This document shows positions 282 to 24,754 of a DNA stretch of 25,869 nucleotides, piece by piece (within the stretch, counting starts at the first letter, position 1; each line of letters begins with the position of its first letter). Under the pieces are notes generated by a model. The model saw only the letters and a list, made by a program, of their open reading frames with translations, ran no database searches and had not been told where the DNA came from. The stretch lies in the IMG/VR virus record IMGVR_UViG_3300025112_000161, positions 1 to 25,869 of that record; one strand, 5' to 3'. The DNA is from a virus. The position numbers and the translations under genes are program-made.

Positions 282-677
282 TTAAAACTTTTCCATATCC
301 TGCTCTTTTGGAGCTTGCTTTGCCCAATAACCCCAAATAGATTTTGCATTAACAAGTTTATCAGGGCTTATTCCATATCCTCCTTGAGAATCAGAGGACA
401 TCTGTGCAAAATCTTCAATTGAGGAGCCTTCAGAGTCGTCTAAATTAACCTCTTTATTTCCTTCTGTATCAAAAGTAAAACTCATATCCATAATTTCACC
501 ATCAACTTTATATTGTACGTTGATCTTATTCTTACCTTGCTTTACTTTATAATATGGTGATCTAAATGTTGATTTTACTTTTTGTGCAAATTTTGACCAC
601 CCATTGTCGTCTGCTTCATTGATAATTTCTTCAACAATAGCTCTCAATTGTGATCTTTTAATTTTCATCTTTTTCAT
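282..677 (-). CDS. Small protein with capsid-targeting-like leader, paralogue A
   Basis: This 131-residue protein is not recognised by family. It is clearly paralogous to the next gene upstream (828-1208). Both have a basic amphipathic start, then F-(R/K)-x-P-Y-(Y/F)-K-V, a Y-K-(V/I)-D-G-E block, an acidic middle and the same C-terminal E-K-F. The N-terminus M-K-I-K-R-S-Q-L-R-A-I-V-E-E-I-I-N-E ends in I-N-E, which fits the T4 prohead protease consensus (I/L)-x-E. Cleavage there would leave about 110 residues. GGGAG lies 8 bases before the first ATG, so the MKKMKIK start is preferred over the internal ATG. The role is unknown. A packaged internal or injected protein is an inference from the leader only. 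Confidence 0.8.
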   Translation of the reverse strand: MKKMKIKRSQLRAIVEEIINEADDNGWSKFAQKVKSTFRSPYYKVKQGKNKINVQYKVDGEIMDMSFTFDTEGNKEVNLDDSEGSSIEDFAQMSSDSQGGYGISPDKLVNAKSIWGYWAKQAPKEQDMEKF

Positions 678-1404: not shown

Positions 1405-3291
1405 TTAAAATGCTACCATTATTTTAGTATTTCCATTCATTTCGATTCCTAAATAATTTACAAACGCTTCAATACTTTCTTTTGCTGCTTCCTTTATTTT
1501 TGTAACTACTTTCTTGACAACATTCTCGTAAAAGTTTTTAACTAACCCCTTTACTTTGTCAATTAGCTTTTTACCAATAGATTTTAAATTGTTTATTGCA
1601 CCTTTGACATCAAACTCGCTCAATATTTCTAGTTGGCTGTCAACAAGCTGCTTTTCAAACAGTAATTGCTCTTCATTGATTATATCTTTCACATCTTCAC
1701 TTAATAAACGCAAAGAAGAAAATGATGAACGACCAGAGCTCTTAAAACCAACTGTTGTTTTTACATGAGATGCGTAACTACTAGCCCAATCAATATCAAT
1801 TTTCTTAACTGATAAACTACCATCTGTTCCAAATACTAGAATTTTATTTGCAACTGGTAACAATGAACTGTTTAATTTGTTGTTGCCTGAAAATTTGAAA
1901 TTACCTGTAGCAGCTTCATATACTGCCCATGCTTTAAATCGTTCATCTTCGAATATCTTATTAATATCACCCTCTAACCGTTTGTGTGTAATCAATCCAT
2001 CAATTACTCCTGTAATATTCTCTCTCATCTCTTTAAACTTTTCGTTTTTGATATAACCATTGAACCATTTCATAACTGCTGAAGATTTATTAATGGTTAC
2101 ACCTTCTATAAATTTATCCATCCAATTTCCCATTGCAGGAGCAATACCAGCTGAAATCATTTCAGATCTTGCGTGATCCTTATATGCCTTATCTGGATTT
2201 TTCTTGGATTTTGAACCCGGTATATCTGTTATTCTCTTCTTACTAGCTTCTTTCTTTATTTCTTTGTATCTCATTTCGATGTAATCATTAACAACATCAT
2301 TTTTTATTTCTGTTACTGACTGATCGAAATTCATTGAAATGAAATCTTTTTCTATAGATGAAATAACTCCATCCACTACCTTTTTCTTATTTCCCTTTTC
2401 ATATTTTTCATAATATGTAAGAGCTCCCTTAAACATCCCTATTGATTCACCGCCTTTTGCGCTTGCTAATTGTGAACCACCTTTTTTCTTCACTGATATT
2501 TTATTATTTTTTCCGCCAAATATATCAGTTTTGGGAGTGCCATCCGATCCGGGCCAGGTTGTATGAGGTTTATATGAGTCACCACCTGTTTGCCTTAAGA
2601 AACTTCCCATTGACTTAGCTTTTTTTATAACTTTAGAACAAACTTCAGTAAGATGTTCTTCATATGTTTCATATGTATTTGAAACTTCAGCTGCTTTCAT
2701 TGCTTCTTCTCTACTCATACCCATCATCTTATTATATTCAACACATAATCCCATTTCATAAAATGCTGCATCTCTTGGAACACCAGTGCTACCTCCTCCA
2801 CCTCCAGACGATAATTTCAAATTAATAATTTTACCATCCTTCGTCATATGTAAACCATAATACTGACCTGATATTTTGCCTTGTTTATCATTTTTTAATT
2901 GTACTTTTGTTCCCGGAGGAACTGCTTTTACACTAATACCTAGTAATTGTGAAACTTTTTTTGCTATTTCTTCTGGATCTTTTCCTCCTAGATCTGCTAA
3001 ACGATTATCACCTTTCATTTGTCCTAGTGATAATTTGCTTCCTAGCTTTGAGACAATTAAATCTCTAACTTCTTTTTCATAATTTGCTTCATGAAGTTTT
3101 TTTGTATTATTTTGTTCAGCTCCTATCATTTGTAACATTGTTCCATTCTTTAAAGAGCACGCTACTACTTTACCTTCTGGGTTCTTGAAAAAACCAAACC
3201 CTATATATTCTAACTTAAGTTTCATTGCTTTCTGATATGAATAATCAGATTCTCTGATATCAATATCTAGCTCATTGACTTTCACTTTCAT
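1405..3291 (-). CDS. 628-residue unassigned protein with possible PD-(D/E)XK-like motif and multiple leader-like sites
   Basis: This large protein is not confidently assigned. The N-terminus MKVKVNELDIDIRE ends in I-R-E and could be a protease-cleaved leader. Residues 163-167 are five glycines in a linker. At 251-275 is G-T-P-K-T-D256-I-F then K-I-S-V-K268-K-K-G-G-S-Q, a D...(S)-x-K arrangement reminiscent of PD-(D/E)XK nucleases, with possible acidic partner E179 in a preceding helix. The C-terminal 100 residues hold LLSE, DIINE and ILSE, again like prohead protease sites, before a strongly basic amphipathic helix region. It overlaps the upstream gene by 20 bases, with GGAG very close to the ATG. 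A virion-packaged nuclease is one reading; an ordinary structural protein is another. Confidence 0.75.
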   Translation of the reverse strand: MKVKVNELDIDIRESDYSYQKAMKLKLEYIGFGFFKNPEGKVVACSLKNGTMLQMIGAEQNNTKKLHEANYEKEVRDLIVSKLGSKLSLGQMKGDNRLADLGGKDPEEIAKKVSQLLGISVKAVPPGTKVQLKNDKQGKISGQYYGLHMTKDGKIINLKLSSGGGGGSTGVPRDAAFYEMGLCVEYNKMMGMSREEAMKAAEVSNTYETYEEHLTEVCSKVIKKAKSMGSFLRQTGGDSYKPHTTWPGSDGTPKTDIFGGKNNKISVKKKGGSQLASAKGGESIGMFKGALTYYEKYEKGNKKKVVDGVISSIEKDFISMNFDQSVTEIKNDVVNDYIEMRYKEIKKEASKKRITDIPGSKSKKNPDKAYKDHARSEMISAGIAPAMGNWMDKFIEGVTINKSSAVMKWFNGYIKNEKFKEMRENITGVIDGLITHKRLEGDINKIFEDERFKAWAVYEAATGNFKFSGNNKLNSSLLPVANKILVFGTDGSLSVKKIDIDWASSYASHVKTTVGFKSSGRSSFSSLRLLSEDVKDIINEEQLLFEKQLVDSQLEILSEFDVKGAINNLKSIGKKLIDKVKGLVKNFYENVVKKVVTKIKEAAKESIEAFVNYLGIEMNGNTKIMVAF

Positions 3292-3294
3292 TCT
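3263..3294. repeat. Duplicated start-region sequence, copy 2 (copy 1 at 1355-1386)
   Basis: This partner of the repeat at 1355-1386 covers the ATG and first codons of the 628-residue gene. It differs from copy 1 at two adjacent positions (gc versus at). Confidence 0.75.
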
Positions 3295-4024
3295 CCATAT
3301 AATAACTCTTCATTACATTTTTAAGGTCATCAAATTCTTCAATTGCCTTTTCCTCACTAATATTATGAGTACTGGTTACTTTCTCAACATATTCTTTTTT
3401 CATTTCCTCAACTCTATCATTATCTACATATGTTATAACTTCTTTAGGTTGATTCAAATTATCAAACAATTCCTCATAAAATTCATCACCTAAAGAGTTA
3501 GCAAAGAATTCAGCCTCAGCCACGGGATCATCTTGTGGATTAAACTCTTCATCATTTAAAATTGGCTTATTATCATCATCATTTAATATTCCTTCAATAT
3601 GAGCATTCAATTCATCAACAATTTTTCTAATCAATCTCTCTTGATTTTTCTTATTCTTTACAACCCATTCTTCATACTGATCCTTTTCTCCATTAAATGT
3701 TTCAAAATCGTGAACTTTCAAATATATTGAACCATCTGAAGTACTCCTTATTTTATTGTTAATATAATCCAAAATTTTATTCTTAACATCAATAAATTTA
3801 GATTCATCATGATTATACATATTTCTTAATTCTAAAACAGATTCATTAAATGCCCACATGTATATATTGCGTATTTTTTTTAGTATATCATATTTTGAAT
3901 ATTCAACCTCTTTAGCATTTTTAGGCTCATATCTACGATTATCATCATCTCTATATTGTCCTATATATTCTTTAAACTTTGGGACAAGCTCTTTTTTATT
4001 AAATTTAAATTCAGTCTCTATCAT
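3272..4024 (-). CDS. Acidic 250-residue protein of unknown function
   Basis: No family is recognised. The protein is charged and predicted mostly helical. It has a central acidic, Asp/Asn-rich stretch (around ILNDDDNKPILNDEEFNPQD) and an acidic C-terminus ending in ENESESQ. There is no signal peptide or membrane segment. The start ATG overlaps the stop of the polymerase-like gene (ATGA) and its end overlaps the next start by 20 bases, so the three genes from 5364 down to 1405 look translationally coupled. By context it could be a partner of the polymerase-like protein or of the 628-residue protein; nothing in the sequence decides between them. Confidence 0.75.
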   Translation of the reverse strand: MIETEFKFNKKELVPKFKEYIGQYRDDDNRRYEPKNAKEVEYSKYDILKKIRNIYMWAFNESVLELRNMYNHDESKFIDVKNKILDYINNKIRSTSDGSIYLKVHDFETFNGEKDQYEEWVVKNKKNQERLIRKIVDELNAHIEGILNDDDNKPILNDEEFNPQDDPVAEAEFFANSLGDEFYEELFDNLNQPKEVITYVDNDRVEEMKKEYVEKVTSTHNISEEKAIEEFDDLKNVMKSYYMENESESQ

Positions 4025-5364
4025 GATTTCAACTCCCTATATGTCAAACCAAATTTGGTAGTAAAATAATATTTGACATTGAATTCTTTTAGTTTCATAG
4101 CAAATGTAGAAATTATTTTCATTAATGAATCTAATTCATTTCTATCTACATCCAAAATTATTTCATCATATACTGTAGCTATAATATGTGATTGTAATTT
4201 ATTCTCAAATAACTCATCCATTATATTCTTTACATTTTCTGTCATCATCATTGTCGAATGATTCTGGATCATGTTGTTAACGGACTTGGTATAAGCAGAT
4301 TCTTTGTCTTGGTATTTTATTTGTTTACCATAGCCTGTAGTAATAGATAGATTTTTTATGGCTTCATTTCTAAATGACTTTATATATGTTTTCAGTTTAG
4401 GATAATGACTTATCATTGTGTCTATTATCGTCTTGTCATATTTCGAAGAACCATACATCCATTTAATAATATTGAATTTTACATTGCTTCTGGTTTCACC
4501 TTTTATTTTGTCAAGGATGGTTTGATATATATCCTTTTCACTAGAGTGTATATCAGCTGTTGACAGTAGAACTTTCAATTCATAGCATTTAAAGTCCAGA
4601 GATAGTAGCAGACCATTTGCAAATTTACTCTTTATTGCATCGCCATATTTTGATTGGAATGGATGAAATTTAGAAACCAATCTACCAGTACTACTTTTAT
4701 TGAGATCATATTCTATATTTGCCAATGGTGCTTGGTCGTCATAGTCAATGAAATATTTCTTTACATTGTCATAACCTACTTTGTGCAAGTTTTTATTATC
4801 AATCCCAATTCCCATGTTCTCAATATAAGCATAATAGGGAGTGATAGTATGATTCATGTCTGTAAAATCATTGGTCGGATTATTTTTGTGTTTAACAATA
4901 AACTCAATGTCTTTTACTAAGCTACTGTTTAACACCTTTTTATCTAATACTTGCCAAATTGGGTTTTCTAAATTTGTTGACTCTCTATAAAATGATACAG
5001 CAGGCGGATACGAATCATATAGATCCGATATGGATGTGTAATCACTTAATAATTTAACATCAACAATATTTACTGGAAGATGGTTTAATTCAAAATTACT
5101 ATTAACATTATACAGATACTTTATAAATTGCTTGAAATCAATCATTGCAATTTCAGCACCTGATTGTCTCAGTATCAAAACAAATTCTTTGATGAATGAG
5201 ATCTCACTATAAATATTACTGGAAATGTAAATGGTATCATTTTCTAATACAGCAATGGAAATTAACTTATTAAAAGAATTATTAAGCTTATAAGCTATAG
5301 CTATATTATTAAATTTATTGATTACATTTAGAATAGTACTTAATTCAACAATTTCTATATTCAA
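4021..5364 (-). CDS. Compact family A DNA polymerase-like protein
   Basis: This 447-residue protein has the family A (Pol I) palm motifs in order. They are T226-G-R228-L; motif A S-L-D257-F-K-C-Y-E262-L; motif B R292-x3-K296-x7-Y304-G305 with E. coli Pol I spacing; N363-x3-Q367; and motif C V-Y-D400-E401, with Y where H is usual. The motif B position equivalent to E. coli F762 is I300. Residues 60-110 look like a degenerate 3'-5' exonuclease domain lacking clear catalytic acids. P-Y-Y-A-Y-I-E-N-M-G-I-G-I-D (about 176-189) is the usual thumb start, but the thumb is very short. The start codon is TTG, with AAGAGG seven bases upstream. It probably acts in phage DNA synthesis or repair. T4-like phages normally use a family B polymerase, so its presence here is notable. 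Confidence 0.82.
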   Translation of the reverse strand: MNIEIVELSTILNVINKFNNIAIAYKLNNSFNKLISIAVLENDTIYISSNIYSEISFIKEFVLILRQSGAEIAMIDFKQFIKYLYNVNSNFELNHLPVNIVDVKLLSDYTSISDLYDSYPPAVSFYRESTNLENPIWQVLDKKVLNSSLVKDIEFIVKHKNNPTNDFTDMNHTITPYYAYIENMGIGIDNKNLHKVGYDNVKKYFIDYDDQAPLANIEYDLNKSSTGRLVSKFHPFQSKYGDAIKSKFANGLLLSLDFKCYELKVLLSTADIHSSEKDIYQTILDKIKGETRSNVKFNIIKWMYGSSKYDKTIIDTMISHYPKLKTYIKSFRNEAIKNLSITTGYGKQIKYQDKESAYTKSVNNMIQNHSTMMMTENVKNIMDELFENKLQSHIIATVYDEIILDVDRNELDSLMKIISTFAMKLKEFNVKYYFTTKFGLTYRELKS

Positions 5365-5436: not shown

Positions 5437-6606
5437 TCAACCTATTTGTAAACTATTCTGTAAAGATAAGGAGGGTATAGTTCCTAAATAATTTAACATG
5501 AATTCAGTTCCAGATAGTGCTCTATTGAATATTCTGGTCAGACCAACCATTCCAGTTATGCCTGAATTAGATAAATCTAAGTCTTTACCTATCACTAATC
5601 TACCATTTGAAAGCATATTAGGGAATGTAGAAATTGTATTTGTATAAGCAGCACTATTTCCATTGATATAAATATATGCCCCAGACAAATCATTTGAGCC
5701 TGTAAGAACTGTAGCGCCAATATGATACCACTCACCAGTATGTAAGAATCCAGCAGTTAAAGTACTAGTTCCAACCTTTAATTGTAATGTTCCAGATATT
5801 TCTTTAAGAGACATGACCTCAGTAGTTCCAGAACCAACAGACATAATATTAGTAGTTCCAGTTGTTGATAGTTTAATATGTGTCATCATTGAAAAACCAC
5901 CGGCAGTTGTAGCATGAAATCTACCTGAACTTAAACTCTCTATCCAAGATTTGCCATCTAATCTAAAACCACCTTCACAAGGTGAATATGTAAAACCACT
6001 AATAGTAGAAATTGTACCATCACCAGAAGCAACACCTTTGATATTTGCACTAATACTATTTCCAGATCTATCTTCTATACCTGTAAGCTGAGAGTTTAAT
6101 TCTTCCCTATTGTATGTGTATAATAATATTTGGCTTTTGCCAGTAGTGCCGTCTGGTGGTGTTTGATCCGGTCCTGGCCTATAACCTGCACCTAAATAGT
6201 TTAGGTTATTATTAATTTTTGTAAGTCCTGAAAGAGATATATCACCTGTGAATATTCCAGTATCATTTACAATAACATCAACTCTGTTTCCATTAGTAAG
6301 AACTGTTGAAATTACATATTCAACGTTTGAAGCAGTACTAGTATTATTATCAGCTGTTGTTGATTCGGGATATATTGATTTTGTTCCCGTTGCAGATTGT
6401 AGTCCTCCGGAACTTCCATAAACAACTGCCAATACTCCTGAAGCGGCTTCCCTTAAATTAGACTCTCTTAATCTCACTACGGATAAAAATTCACCACCTG
6501 TTAATGCTCTATTATTACTGAGTACAAATATAGGCTGTTCGTTAAAATATCCTTTATTTGTATTGAAACGTACTGTATGTTGTATAATAAAATTGTCTGT
6601 TAACAT
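5437..6606 (-). CDS. Virion structural protein with C-terminal LamG/concanavalin-like domain
   Basis: This 389-residue beta-rich, Ser/Thr/Gly-rich protein is probably a tail fibre or baseplate-rim adhesin. Residues 1-200 are an unassigned structural segment. Residues about 205-375 form a LamG-type jelly roll: a starting GGFRLDGKSWIE strand, a GEWYHIGATV strand (W293, H295), YIYINGNSAAY, RLVIGKDL, then GLTRIFNRALSGTEF. It follows the 6617-8107 gene closely, with AAAGGA straddling that gene's stop codon. LamG folds in phage tails commonly bind surface glycans, so host attachment is the likely role. It is the last structural gene before the polymerase-like gene. Confidence 0.8.
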   Translation of the reverse strand: MLTDNFIIQHTVRFNTNKGYFNEQPIFVLSNNRALTGGEFLSVVRLRESNLREAASGVLAVVYGSSGGLQSATGTKSIYPESTTADNNTSTASNVEYVISTVLTNGNRVDVIVNDTGIFTGDISLSGLTKINNNLNYLGAGYRPGPDQTPPDGTTGKSQILLYTYNREELNSQLTGIEDRSGNSISANIKGVASGDGTISTISGFTYSPCEGGFRLDGKSWIESLSSGRFHATTAGGFSMMTHIKLSTTGTTNIMSVGSGTTEVMSLKEISGTLQLKVGTSTLTAGFLHTGEWYHIGATVLTGSNDLSGAYIYINGNSAAYTNTISTFPNMLSNGRLVIGKDLDLSNSGITGMVGLTRIFNRALSGTEFMLNYLGTIPSLSLQNSLQIG

Positions 6607-12773: not shown

Positions 12774-13469
12774 TTATTCGTCTTCACTTTTTGGTTCTTC
12801 TGTTGCTTTAACTTTTTTAGCTCTTTTTGGTTTTTTCTTAACCTTTTCTTCAACTAACTTAGAAGTCAATTCGGGTTGTTTAATAACAACCTGTTCTTTA
12901 AAATTAAAAGTACCGATACTATTAAGATTTTTCCCATCATCAAGTGTTTTGATAATATTATAATTATCATGTTCGTCTTTTAATTTGTCAAATACATCAG
13001 GAATCTTCATCTCTTCAGCATAATTGCAATCAACATTATGCATAGCAATCAATGTTCCAGGCTTGATGCTATCTTTTATAATATTCCAGATTTTGTCTGT
13101 TGCATTATGCATACTGACAAATACAATCATATCAGCAATATTTGCTGCATCTTGAAGAGCGACCTTGCTTTTTTTTAAGTCGTCTATATAATTAAATATA
13201 ATTTTATCGTCAATGACATTTTTTCTAGCTGTAACAAAAGGTTTAGGTTCTATATCGTTTCTTCTATAATCAAATGTTATTACCTTATTAATAGCACCAA
13301 AAGCAAGCCATAATGTAGTTAAACCACCAAACGTGCCAATTTCTAAAATATTTTTTGCATCAATATCAACTGCTAGATCAAAAAGTATATCACATTCTTC
13401 ATTAGTAACTTGTCTTGCAGAATTAAAATTAAAATCGGGATATAATCTTTCAGGATCTCTTTTATACAT
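12774..13469 (-). CDS. Class I SAM-methyltransferase-fold protein with basic C-terminal tail
   Basis: In this 231-residue protein, residues 40-60 carry the SAM-binding glycine loop (N-I-L-E-I-G-T-F-G-G-L-T-T-L-W-L), followed by V-I-T-F-D-Y-R where the acidic D ends strand 2, typical of Methyltransf_24-type proteins. The strand that normally gives an Asp-containing ID-G-x-H-x-Y motif reads M-I-V-F-V-S-M-H-N-A-T-D-K-I, so the usual metal- or substrate-linked Asp is missing while His remains. The last 25 residues are Lys/Glu-rich (EEKVKKKPKRAKKVKATEEP). It sits between the gp7-like and fibre genes. It might modify a virion protein or glycan, or be a non-catalytic structural or assembly protein. 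GGAG precedes the ATG. Confidence 0.72.
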   Translation of the reverse strand: MYKRDPERLYPDFNFNSARQVTNEECDILFDLAVDIDAKNILEIGTFGGLTTLWLAFGAINKVITFDYRRNDIEPKPFVTARKNVIDDKIIFNYIDDLKKSKVALQDAANIADMIVFVSMHNATDKIWNIIKDSIKPGTLIAMHNVDCNYAEEMKIPDVFDKLKDEHDNYNIIKTLDDGKNLNSIGTFNFKEQVVIKQPELTSKLVEEKVKKKPKRAKKVKATEEPKSEDE

Positions 13470-19277: not shown

Positions 19278-19562
19278 TTAAGCTTCAGCCTTTCCTGACT
19301 TTACTCTGTTCAAAGTCTTTATCATTACAACTAGTTGCTTATCTTTAGTTTTTTGATATGCATATATTAGTGCATTAGTCATCTTTTCCAATTGTTCTGG
19401 AGTAAGCAACCTTGCATTCTTAGCTAGCTCCATATCGACTGAGCCGCCTTTGGGTTCTTTCATTTTACTAGAAGCCTTAGCCAACTTCCCATCTTCCTCT
19501 TCTTCAATCTCTTTAATTGCTTCTACAACTACTTTCTTAAGTTCTGACTTACGAATTTTCAT
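19278..19562 (-). CDS. 94-residue protein with long basic leader ending IKE
   Basis: The N-terminus M-K-I-R-K-S-E-L-K-K-V-V-V-E-A-I-K-E is nearly the same type of leader as in the two genes at 282-1208, 18 kb away, although the mature parts are unrelated. After an acidic run (IEEEEDG) come a Lys-rich stretch and a helical C-terminus (MTNALIYAYQKTKDKQLVVM). GGAG lies eight bases before the ATG. It is the first gene after gp6 in a set of five coupled small genes. Function unknown; a packaged protein is the leader-based hypothesis. Confidence 0.72.
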   Translation of the reverse strand: MKIRKSELKKVVVEAIKEIEEEEDGKLAKASSKMKEPKGGSVDMELAKNARLLTPEQLEKMTNALIYAYQKTKDKQLVVMIKTLNRVKSGKAEA

Positions 19563-19588: not shown

Positions 19589-21391
19589 TTAAAGAGTTCG
19601 TCCCGTAAGATCAAAGTTTAAGAATTTAATCTGCCATAATCCATCTTCCGGGAACCTTATAATACCGCTCTTTGTATTTGCCTCAACTTTGAATGTTACG
19701 TTTGAATAAGTTCTACCATCTTCAGTTCCAGTTATATTTCTCACCTTCAATTCAGCAACCGATCTGATTTTATCTATAGACTGAATCTTAGATATAATAT
19801 CAGGTAGCACTATAGTATCATTAAAGTTACTATTGGAAAGATCGAATTCTCTTCTCAATAAGAAGAACGCTTCCAATAAAGCTTCATTGGCGTTAATATT
19901 TGGTTCTGGAACTATAGAAAAATCAACACCAATGTCAATGATTTTACCATCAGTTATTTTTATAGAATCAGAGAATGATTTGAATCTCTTAACAAAAGTT
20001 TCAACGTTATTCTTTAGTACTCCACCTGGAGCTGTTAATTGACCATTGTCATTTTTAGATATAAGCAACAATTCAACACCAAGTCTATTGCTAGGATCTT
20101 TTCTAGCAAATGTTCTAAATACTGTACCGAATGCTGTAGGCATAGATAGAGTAGTTATTTGATAGTCTTGAAGTGTTACAGCTCTGTTTTGTGCCGCAAA
20201 ATAAGCAGAAGCATTCTCTCTTATTTCATTAAGAGTCTCTCTTTCGGAACCACCTGTTGCCTGTACATCATTAGTAACTGTAAGTAATCTTTCTATATTA
20301 TCCGCAACATCAGCTGATATACTTCTAAAATTAGGAGTCTTATAAGTTATATTGATATCCCTAAAATATGTTAAAGTATTAGAACCAACATTGGTATTAA
20401 TACCTCCGCCATATCTATATTGTATATCTAAGGAAATATTTGCAGGAGCAAGACCGAGTGATCTTGTATTAAGAAATTGAGCCGCATTAATTGTTGATGG
20501 TGAGAATGAAGAGGCAGAACCTCTAACAGTTGTAGGTAATACAAAGTCTTCTGGGTTAGGAACGATTTCTGAATCTTCAAGTGTCAATTTACCAGATCCA
20601 AATGTAATTGAAGTATCCCCTTCAGATTCAACCTCAACTATATATCTCCTCGGTACTCTTTTCATTTTAAGAACCTTTGGTGTAGTACCTGATGTTGATG
20701 TGTCATTATCCTCACCAAAAAATATAGTATCTTGTGCAAGGAAATCTGTCTGAGTCCACTCATTACTATCTGAACTCGTAATAGAAATAACCTCTGTTAT
20801 ATCTTTATCGGGCATTGTTAATTTTAAAAATGGTTGTGCAGCCCCGGCTGTGTATACAAACGTTCTTAGCTCACCTGCAACAGCAGATATACCTGATATA
20901 GAAGCTGTAACTACTGTACCATCTGTTACTACACTTCTATTTGCTGTTAATGAGAAATCTACATCTTCAACAAGCATAAATGAAACTGATGGTTCAAAGC
21001 TTGTGACTACCCTAGTGCCCTTATTGAGTGTGAACGCTTCAGCAGCAGATGTTGAGTCATTAAATATTGCACTGACTGATAATTCAGTGACCGCAGGTGT
21101 TGCTAATCTTGGTTGTCTTCCTAATGTTTTTGATAGCCCTATAATGTTCTTCTCTTCAACAGCTTTATTTATGAATGTCTCATTAGCCTGTCTATCAATA
21201 TAAAACGTCAATAAATCACCAACATAAGCAAGCATTTCAAGAATAGCCATACCTCCAGACGCTTCGTTAAAGTCCTGGAAATCATTAGGGAAGTTCTGTT
21301 TTGTAAATTCTATGATGTCACTTTTTATGCCATCAAAGTCTTTGCTTACATAAGATACATTTCGTATTTCTTTTAAATCTACTGTAGCCAT
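19589..21391 (-). CDS. gp6: Baseplate wedge protein gp6 (gpJ-like)
   Basis: This 600-residue protein compares with 660 in T4. The N-terminal region S-K-D-F-D-G-I-K-S-D-I-I-E-F-T, N-E-A-S-G-G-M-A-I-L-E-M-L-A-Y-V-G-D-L-L-T-F-Y-I-D-R-Q-A-N-E is the hallmark of T4 gp6/gpJ proteins of aquatic myophages. The C-terminal half carries the conserved gpJ-like section (N-R-A-V-T-L-Q-D-Y, P-T-A-F-G-T-V-F-R, D-G-K-I-I-D-I-G-V-D-F-S-I). gp6 forms the dimeric ring that holds the inner baseplate together and triggers sheath contraction. It starts three bases after the ADP-ribosyltransferase-like gene ends. Confidence 0.9.
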   Translation of the reverse strand: MATVDLKEIRNVSYVSKDFDGIKSDIIEFTKQNFPNDFQDFNEASGGMAILEMLAYVGDLLTFYIDRQANETFINKAVEEKNIIGLSKTLGRQPRLATPAVTELSVSAIFNDSTSAAEAFTLNKGTRVVTSFEPSVSFMLVEDVDFSLTANRSVVTDGTVVTASISGISAVAGELRTFVYTAGAAQPFLKLTMPDKDITEVISITSSDSNEWTQTDFLAQDTIFFGEDNDTSTSGTTPKVLKMKRVPRRYIVEVESEGDTSITFGSGKLTLEDSEIVPNPEDFVLPTTVRGSASSFSPSTINAAQFLNTRSLGLAPANISLDIQYRYGGGINTNVGSNTLTYFRDINITYKTPNFRSISADVADNIERLLTVTNDVQATGGSERETLNEIRENASAYFAAQNRAVTLQDYQITTLSMPTAFGTVFRTFARKDPSNRLGVELLLISKNDNGQLTAPGGVLKNNVETFVKRFKSFSDSIKITDGKIIDIGVDFSIVPEPNINANEALLEAFFLLRREFDLSNSNFNDTIVLPDIISKIQSIDKIRSVAELKVRNITGTEDGRTYSNVTFKVEANTKSGIIRFPEDGLWQIKFLNFDLTGRTL

Positions 21392-21394
21392 ATT

Positions 21395-22189
21395 TTATCT
21401 CTCTGTCAATCCATATTTTTTTAATTCTTCAGGCTTATTTTTTCTTAACCAGTATATTGTTGCCACACCATGACCAACTTCATCGGCTTTATATTCATTG
21501 CCTGCATGAATTACATTAACGTTTAACTTTTTTATGACATCTAATAATTTCTTTCTTGTATCAAAAGAGCCTCGTTGAGCTCGGCCTAAAGGAAGTGATT
21601 GAGTCATTTTTAGTAAAGTGATTGCAGGATATATTTTATTCTTCTTGGTTTTTTTCTTAGAAGGTAATACAACACCGTTGACATAGCTCTTTACGTCAAT
21701 TTTATCGGCATAAATTCGTTCTTCGGCTTCCCATTTTCCGTGTAGTGAAGCTGTACCTTTAGCAAGATCTGTAAGATTAACTCCATCACGGCTCCAACCG
21801 AGGGCTTGGTCCTTTTTCACTTTCTTTGCAAATTCAGGATCAGTTTTCATTTGATCTTTAAGTTTCTTGATCTGTTTAGCATTAGTATTAGAGACAGGTG
21901 TTGTGCTATATTTGGTTTTTAATTTGTCGACATTAAATCTGAAACCTATGCCACCTGTTTCCACCATCTTCCCAGAAGGGAGCATGGTTCTTCTAGGATC
22001 TCTTGTAAAACTAATAAAAGGCTCATCCGCTTTACTTTCTGGTCCTTTTGTGCCCATCATCTTTCGCAATCCATGTTGTTTCGTTCCCTTTAATGTATTA
22101 GAAGACACTATAGTTATAAAATTTTCTATAGATGTAAAATGATATAGAGCAGCTCTTGAAGCTTCCGATATGATGTATTTTAGTTTCAT
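21395..22189 (-). CDS. ADP-ribosyltransferase-like protein with MKLKYIISE leader
   Basis: This 264-residue protein has, after the leader M-K-L-K-Y-I-I-S-E-A, L-Y-H17-F-T-S-I-E-N-F-I-T-I-V-S-S-N-T-L-K, the first core strand and helix typical of ADP-ribosyltransferases of the H-type (DarT/DUF4433-like and related phage families). F-I-S-F-T-R-D-P follows at 58-65, then G-G-I-G-F-R-F-N-V-D-K-L, and finally W-E154-A-E156-E-R-I-Y-A-D-K-I, where the catalytic Glu is expected. The exact subfamily and target are unknown; DNA, RNA and protein targets are all possible. T4 Alt is a packaged ADP-ribosyltransferase with a cleaved leader, which this gene parallels. It sits between gp25 and gp6. Confidence 0.7.
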   Translation of the reverse strand: MKLKYIISEASRAALYHFTSIENFITIVSSNTLKGTKQHGLRKMMGTKGPESKADEPFISFTRDPRRTMLPSGKMVETGGIGFRFNVDKLKTKYSTTPVSNTNAKQIKKLKDQMKTDPEFAKKVKKDQALGWSRDGVNLTDLAKGTASLHGKWEAEERIYADKIDVKSYVNGVVLPSKKKTKKNKIYPAITLLKMTQSLPLGRAQRGSFDTRKKLLDVIKKLNVNVIHAGNEYKADEVGHGVATIYWLRKNKPEELKKYGLTER

Positions 22190-23805: not shown

Positions 23806-23998
23806 CGGTCTCTATCTCTATATCCCTTATATTAATGTTATGTTCTTTAAGTTTTTTTTCTAATGCTGTAATACCCGCTTCCACTCTAGTTATAGCCTCC
23901 ATAGTAACTTTCAGTATTTCAATCATATCCTTGTGTGCTTCTAACTTTATAACATACTGTTCAGCTATTTCCCTTGCTTCAGGAGTTAATTCAATCAT
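23795..23998 (-). CDS. 67-residue coiled-coil protein
   Basis: This helical protein has a heptad-rich segment (MEAITRVEAGITALEKKLKE). It overlaps the sigma factor gene by eight bases and the gp5-like gene by 11, so it is translated with them. There is no recognised family. It could be a small tail-assembly or baseplate accessory protein. Its N-terminus (MIELTPEAREIAE) is not of the M-K-(L/I) leader type. Confidence 0.65.
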   Translation of the reverse strand: MIELTPEAREIAEQYVIKLEAHKDMIEILKVTMEAITRVEAGITALEKKLKEHNINIRDIEIETDES

Positions 23999-24656
23999 AA
24001 AAATCGTCTTTCGTACCCTGATATATTTCTTTAATTTTCTTTAAGGATTTTGTTATCTTTCTAGGAGGTAATCCAGTTCCTTCTCTCAGGAATAAATATA
24101 CTTGCTTCTTATTATAAATATTAAGATCAGGATACTTTTTCAATATATTTACAATAATTTGAGCAACAGATCTATCCTCGTCATTGAAATTTGTATTTCC
24201 ATTTATTGTCTCTATATTATTTGTTAACATGCTTATAAATTCTTTGTCGTGTTTAGATTTTTCTTTTGTCTTATGAACATCAACACTTATTGTATGCATA
24301 TATTGCATAGTCTTATCTTTGTCAATGGTGATATTTTTTTTGGCAGCGTTTTGTTGCTGTATGAGCCAGTTCTTTGCAACTGTACCAAAAAAGGAAAATG
24401 ATTTATAGCCTTTATCCGGATCAAATTTTTCTATTTTCTCATAAAGGTAAATCAATAAATCATATTCAATGTCCTGCAAATTTCCCAATCTTCTATTGAA
24501 GTTGTAAGTATAAAAAATACTCTCAATCAATTTGAGGAATGCAGCCTGTATAACCTCCTCAAAAATTTGATGTCTCTCCCCTATACTTTCACTTCTAATA
24601 TAAGTTGCCACAGCCTCTTCTTGTTCAGGTCCCCAATACATCTTTTTCTTTGCCAT
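23991..24656 (-). CDS. gp55: gp55-like late-transcription sigma factor
   Basis: This is a 221-residue product from the ATG at 24656, chosen because GGGAG lies five bases upstream; a longer frame up to 24680 lacks such a site. Residues about 60-102 resemble sigma region 2 of T4 gp55 relatives: D-I-E-Y-D-L-L-I-Y-L-Y-E-K-I-E-K-F-D-P-D-K-G-Y-K-S-F-S-F-F-G-T-V-A-K-N-W-L-I-Q-Q. The basic C-terminal part (L-P-P-R-K-I-T-K-S-L-K-K-I-K-E-I-Y) could bind DNA. gp55 directs host RNA polymerase to late promoters together with the sliding clamp. Its location in the baseplate operon is noteworthy. T4 gp55 is 185 residues. Confidence 0.8.
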   Translation of the reverse strand: MAKKKMYWGPEQEEAVATYIRSESIGERHQIFEEVIQAAFLKLIESIFYTYNFNRRLGNLQDIEYDLLIYLYEKIEKFDPDKGYKSFSFFGTVAKNWLIQQQNAAKKNITIDKDKTMQYMHTISVDVHKTKEKSKHDKEFISMLTNNIETINGNTNFNDEDRSVAQIIVNILKKYPDLNIYNKKQVYLFLREGTGLPPRKITKSLKKIKEIYQGTKDDFYD

Positions 24657-24754
24657 AACTTCTCCCATTATAAAACACAATTAGCCTAAATAAGTTTATA
24701 AGAAAATTTTTTGAGTTATTAAACTCCTGCTTAATGTTTTCTAGGAATTCTTTT

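Follow-up and report, generated by a model that had tools for sequence, protein, structure and literature searches.

Why does a phage related to T4 encode a compact family A DNA polymerase directly beyond its tail genes, and is this the enzyme that copies the genome? Phage polymerase genes are usually taken to specify the replicase and are used as a lifestyle marker. The gene in question lies at 4021..5364 on the minus strand of the window, that is, the whole 25.9-kb IMG/VR fragment (25,869 nucleotides), and an earlier sequence-only reading had proposed a specialised enzyme for repair, translesion synthesis or priming. The gp6-like baseplate wedge protein of the window (19589..21391, minus strand) has its nearest homologues in Microcystis phage Mel-JY01, Flavobacterium phage immuto and a 484-kb uncultured phage, which puts the phage in the vicinity of Mel-JY01 and immuto, both relatives of T4. 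In the same baseplate cluster, a gene at 21395-22189 (minus strand) shows a very weak match to Tox-ART-HYD1, an ADP-ribosyltransferase (E 0.003, below the cut-off), and has no counterpart in the syntenic relative G004; between structural genes, the product of 23991-24680 (minus strand) matches sigma-70 region 2 marginally (25.1 bits, cut-off 24) and is possibly a phage sigma factor.

The polymerase ORF is complete and encodes 447 amino acids; it begins with TTG, as the earlier reading had it, and a Shine-Dalgarno-like AAGAGG is located 7 nt upstream of this codon. Pfam DNA_pol_A (PF00476) matches the protein with 48.8 bits (E 6e-13; curated cut-off 34.3), and several PHROG polymerase families and PDB profiles also match; the assignment to a compact family A polymerase with exactly this ORF is confirmed by ORF, Pfam, alignment and AlphaFold model together. 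Alignment to E. coli Pol I, whose numbering is used in the comparisons, located all the palm motifs that had been claimed, all on the minus strand: motif A, DFKCYE (aa 257-262, 4579..4596), contains D257 and E262, the equivalents of D705 and E710; motif B or the O-helix, RSNVKFNIIKWMYGS (aa 292-306, 4447..4491), contains R292, K296 and Y304 for R754, K758 and Y766, with I300 in the place of F762; and motif C, VYDEI (aa 398-402, 4159..4173), contains Y399 in the place of H881, followed by D400 and E401 for D882 and E883. R228, N363 and Q367 correspond to R668, N845 and Q849. Ile at the F762 position and Tyr for His in motif C had both been read correctly, and Tyr for H734 and Lys for G763 are further substitutions. 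D705 and D882 are essential residues, and E710 excludes ribonucleotides. The two catalytic Asp and the Arg, Lys and Tyr of the O-helix are present in the expected order and are invariant in four divergent members.

Structure prediction, which had been suggested as a check, points to the same family. The AlphaFold2 model, built on a 32-sequence alignment, has a pLDDT of 89.2 and a pTM of 0.87, and Foldseek aligned it over its full length with Bst and Klenow structures in the PDB (E down to 1.6e-19 for Bst Pol I; TM about 0.71-0.77), and the palm and finger motifs and their order are shared with these enzymes; among viral models, the best matches are longer, full-size PolAs. According to the model, the protein has the right-hand fold of the Klenow type, with D257 at the end of strand 251-258 and D400 in the turn between strands 393-398 and 401-407, a predicted topology that agrees with that expected for motifs A and C of a normal palm. 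Compared with Klenow and the Bst large fragment, the protein is about 130-160 residues shorter, has no exonuclease catalytic residues, has lost the thumb tip, and carries Ile for F762, Tyr for H881 and Tyr for H734.

The degenerate exonuclease domain and the minimal thumb that had been described are both borne out. Alignment and model secondary structure identify the N-terminal domain (aa ~1-119, 5008..5364, minus strand) as a remnant of the 3'-5' exonuclease fold, in which the D-x-E of motif I (D355/E357) is missing, both in the window clade and in the main compact family discussed below; D424 is not conserved either, so that the Klenow-type set of proofreading residues is incomplete. The exonuclease site is thus predicted to be inactivated, with loss of proofreading. 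The thumb grips the duplex of product DNA and contributes to processivity. In the window protein, the alignment assigns it to aa 182-223 (4696..4821, minus strand), and the stretch from the conserved E182 to TGR comprises 44 residues; since Klenow has about 125 here, the thumb has been shortened by about 80 residues.

A search of IMG/VR for relatives with the window polymerase alone, or with the 628-aa protein encoded two genes downstream (1405..3291, minus strand) alone, found nothing. Relatives of the window clade were reached only through the last tail gene before the polymerase (5437..6606, minus strand; 389 aa), which is 51-63% identical in relatives and retrieved seven contigs. PolA occupies the same site in six of the seven, and the seventh contig ends within the gene; a 250-aa gene (3272..4024, minus strand) that overlaps the polymerase 3' end is conserved directly downstream of it in the clade, and the 628-aa gene that follows is weakly conserved. 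The six PolAs represent three distinct sequences that are 26-34% identical to the window protein, whereas the neighbouring tail proteins are mostly 48-75% identical, so the polymerase diverges faster than most of its tail neighbours. The polymerase gene is identical within near-identical contig pairs, and the other pairs are too diverged for dN/dS. Against this divergence, ten preset palm positions (R668, D705, E710, R754, K758, Y766, N845, Q849, D882 and E883) are invariant in the clade, with a rough chance probability of 5e-9 given 66 invariant columns per 447 residues, which is strong evidence from sequence conservation that catalysis has been retained, a conclusion we regard as well supported. 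Ile762 and Tyr881 are also invariant and are therefore clade characters. Because these two residues are fixed and all canonical palm residues are kept, the active site appears to be altered in detail and not degenerate; the altered positions that had been reported hold for Ile762 and Tyr881.

Two further observations concern the window and its relatives. An O-methyltransferase-like gene in the tail module (12774-13469, minus strand) is 24-37% identical among relatives, compared with mostly 48-75% for its tail neighbours. In addition, otherwise different small proteins begin with a common leader of about 20 residues, approximately MKI(K/R)xS(Q/E/D)(L/I)(K/R)xI(I/V)xE(V/I)(I/L), in the window (282-677, 828-1208 and 19278-19562, all minus strand) and in relatives (L095:8017-8508, L215:10360-10641 and L215:10662-11075); the pattern, which was written after seeing examples, occurs in 6 of 194 ORFs, compared with a mean of 0.01 in residue-shuffled controls.

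Beyond the window clade, an alignment-based search found compact PolA-like relatives in at least 566 IMG/VR stretches. Immuto encodes a 778-aa PolA and, in addition, a compact one of 441 aa, and the compact type is also present in the 484-kb phage, in Mel-JY01 and in the IMG/VR contigs G008, G033 and G046. A scan of genome contigs with this main family found seven MAG contigs, several of which were assigned to Flavobacteriales or other Bacteroidota; the same scan with the window-clade polymerases gave no match. The model of one main-family member has a pLDDT of 93.5 and matches Klenow with E 2.7e-18. Like the window protein, the compact PolAs of immuto (immuto35A_1, QQO91919.1) and Mel-JY01 (WWT39333.1) are about 400-455 aa long, have a degenerate exonuclease fold and a short thumb, keep both catalytic Asp together with K758, Y766 and Q849, and carry Tyr881; they occupy the same site between tail genes and cassette, with a separate replicase alongside. 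They differ in identity, which is 15-21% to the window clade, and in the active site, where the immuto/Mel-JY01 type has H710, mostly Y754, F762 and A or S883, and the window clade has E710, R754, I762 and E883. The annotations of these genes are sparse, immuto35A_1 being named "DNA polymerase family A" only and the Mel-JY01 gene hypothetical. No description of a second, compact PolA was found in the open-access literature, and earlier mention elsewhere is possible; this large compact PolA-like family of T4-related phages is apparently undescribed so far.

How the window gene relates to this family was examined in several ways. A plain HMM of the main compact family did not match the window ORFs, and it is profile-profile comparison, synteny and Tyr881 that connect the two, synteny most strongly. 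The profile-profile comparison of the window clade with the main family gave E 8e-16 over 392 columns; the N-terminal part alone gave an hhalign E of 5e-5, compared with 0.46 for a reversed control, and the N-terminal part of Klenow matched in the same kind of comparison over a short helix only. Tyr881 is common to both compact groups, while all eight full-length PolAs aligned have His. The window clade therefore shares the N-terminal domain and Tyr881 with the main family and lacks the H710, Y754 and S or A883 set, having E, R and E at these positions. The tree has three separate groups, two compact and one of full-length PolAs, and the branch setting the compact groups apart has moderate support (85/68) with long branches. 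Its sequence characters make the window clade a separate branch that is remotely related to the main group and not a member of it, and since the active-site sets differ, the two compact groups may differ in function. The family A domain is common to the window protein and to replicative phage PolAs such as T7 gp5, HTVC033P and the 778-aa PolA of immuto, but in the tree the window gene does not cluster with T7-type or other replicative phage PolAs; those compared are 594-1046 aa long, and the genes of HTVC033P and CRP-3 adjoin helicase or primase genes.

The altered residues of the main family bear on two other readings. In 70 distinct sequences, D705, K758, F762, Y766, R668, Q849 and D882 are present in 70/70, and so are His at E710, Tyr at H881 and Ser or Ala at E883; Tyr at R754 is present in 69/70. 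The loss of E710, R754 and E883 in the main family, together with an exonuclease that is dead in both compact groups, would suit a pseudoenzyme whose PolA fold binds DNA or acts as a scaffold within the recombination cassette. This is very improbable, given that the catalytic Asps, K758, Y766, R668 and Q849 are universal in the main family, that the window clade keeps the full catalytic set, and that a natural family A polymerase with Ser at 883 has been reported to be active (PMC9324360). We had considered Ser or Ala at 883 as an RNA-polymerase-like sign and rejected it, since ordinary phage PolAs have HDS and the Ser-bearing PolA is active (PMC9324360). The main family's universal His in place of the steric-gate Glu710 could also point to a Pol A derivative that acts like a primase or uses ribonucleotides. 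The window clade, however, keeps Glu at 710, Ser in motif C occurs in ordinary phage PolA too, and the relative G067 carries a Toprim-like, primase-type protein (weak match), so we consider this reading highly improbable. With E710 kept, the window enzyme is unlikely to prime or to make RNA.

The position of the gene is informative as well. The sequence-only reading placed it after tail genes and outside any replication cluster; this is true within the window, but in relatives the gene borders a replication and recombination cassette. The 72 main-family loci have the order baseplate hub, ~175-aa gene, compact PolA, small protein, gp32, UvsX, 5'-nuclease and DnaB; where enough sequence was available, the small protein was found in 60/66 loci, gp32 in 45/51, UvsX in 31/34, the 5'-nuclease in 24/27 and DnaB in 21/25. 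In the window clade, contig G053 has tail genes, PolA, small protein, SSB, UvsX, 5'-nuclease and DnaB, with several extra genes between PolA and the small protein, and the ~140-aa downstream protein of the clade is homologous to the main-family small protein. Through G053, this homology and the 72 main-family loci, the window clade is found at the same cassette position: the polymerase gene is not misplaced and marks, in relatives, the border between the tail module and the gp32-UvsX-5'-nuclease-DnaB cassette. Proximity of genes is no proof that they act in one pathway.

The small protein that follows compact PolA has 128-149 aa and the pattern LLCTF...KIFVL...TISxHRKKETNTLYTINALN (for instance at L011:13785-14174, L097:9874-10323, L098:14798-15184, L190:15337-15762 and L192:11755-12195), and the one member tested had no Pfam or PHROG match. 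In G053 (L215-L217, about 12-45 kb), approximately 33 kb lie between the small protein and gp32 and split a cassette that is compact in other phages; this insert is rich in sugar, glycosyltransferase(-like) and radical-SAM-like genes.

The question of the replicase can be approached through the other polymerases in these phages. A family B polymerase accompanies the compact gene in 11 records (Mel-JY01, the 484-kb phage, G008, G033 and G056-G062), and the full-length 778-aa PolA accompanies it in immuto and G046. Rhodothermus phage RM378 was considered as the closest case and dropped, having a PolB match and no compact PolA. On the window-clade contigs, neither PolB nor a second PolA was found. 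This fits, as does the retention of all catalytic residues, a reading in which the compact enzyme is the main replicative polymerase of the phage clade, made processive by a partner protein. Against it stand the contigs G067 and G068, of the same clade: roughly 9 kb past DnaB they encode a 1147-aa protein identified as DnaE by its PHP, DNA_pol3_alpha (215 bits) and finger domains (L232:11783-15226 in G067). The missing proofreading site and cut thumb, and the compact homologues that stand beside separate replicases in 13 other phage records, also speak against this reading, which we judge very unlikely. The DnaE gene of G067 occupies the site where relatives carry PolB, and a uracil-DNA-glycosylase-family gene lies directly upstream of it. 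The overlap of G067 and G068 with G053 consists of homologous UvsX, 5'-nuclease and DnaB (48-62% identical) and SSB (35%). A search for one contig carrying DnaE together with window-type PolA found none, so the link is drawn from overlapping syntenic contigs, from which the window clade seems to use DnaE as its replicase. The suggested search for a family B polymerase was thus successful in most relatives of the wider family but not in the window clade, where DnaE apparently takes its place. Overall, the compact gene is constant in these phages, and what changes is the replicase, which may be of family A, B or C.

Since the gene has a constant location in relatives, which also encode a separate main polymerase, the most likely reading, on sequence grounds, is a conserved helper polymerase for repair or gap filling, and an accessory role of the compact polymerase appears well supported. 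More specifically, it is probably an accessory, second family A polymerase that carries out short-gap synthesis with the SSB, UvsX and 5'-nuclease of the cassette. The enzyme would extend primers by a two-metal mechanism at D257 and D400; having no thumb tip, it would synthesise short stretches only and need partners to stay on DNA; and together with these cassette proteins it would fill gaps at nicks, Okazaki junctions or recombination intermediates. Its role would be much like that of bacterial Pol I beside DnaE, with distributive synthesis and a separately encoded 5'-nuclease.

The specialised role proposed earlier therefore stands as far as it is non-replicative, given the separate replicases of family B, A or C in relatives and the missing exonuclease site and thumb tip; its priming and translesion parts found no specific support, and E262, the steric-gate Glu, speaks against ribonucleotide use. 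A translesion polymerase that copies damaged DNA would be in keeping with the missing proofreading site, the altered residues 762, 734 and 881, the short thumb and a cassette shared with recombination genes; it is nevertheless unlikely, as the protein has a canonical steric gate and canonical Arg, Lys and Tyr in the O-helix, and, being shorter than Klenow, could not accommodate insertion loops like those of pol theta or pol nu. For the family as a whole, we tentatively consider it possible that an accessory PolA-derived lineage has been kept at one site in T4-related ("Far-T4"-like) phages while the replicase was exchanged among A, B and C, and that in most lineages its active site was rebuilt (H710, Y754, Y881 and S883) for a changed choice of substrate or nucleotide, such as recombination-coupled gap filling or ribonucleotide use.

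A metagenome survey retained only sequences with F, L or Y at position 762 (PMC9069017), a filter by which Ile762 enzymes like the window polymerase would be screened out. Nature provides both E710/R754/E883 and H710/Y754/S883, a contrast that allows one to test directly which Pol A palm residues are replaceable, and main-family genes are available in the cultured phages immuto and Mel-JY01. A PolA match in such phage genomes need not mean a replicase. If the accessory reading is true, with a second, compact polymerase retained alongside replicases of three unrelated kinds, many T4-related phages would share out DNA synthesis between enzymes, as bacteria do.
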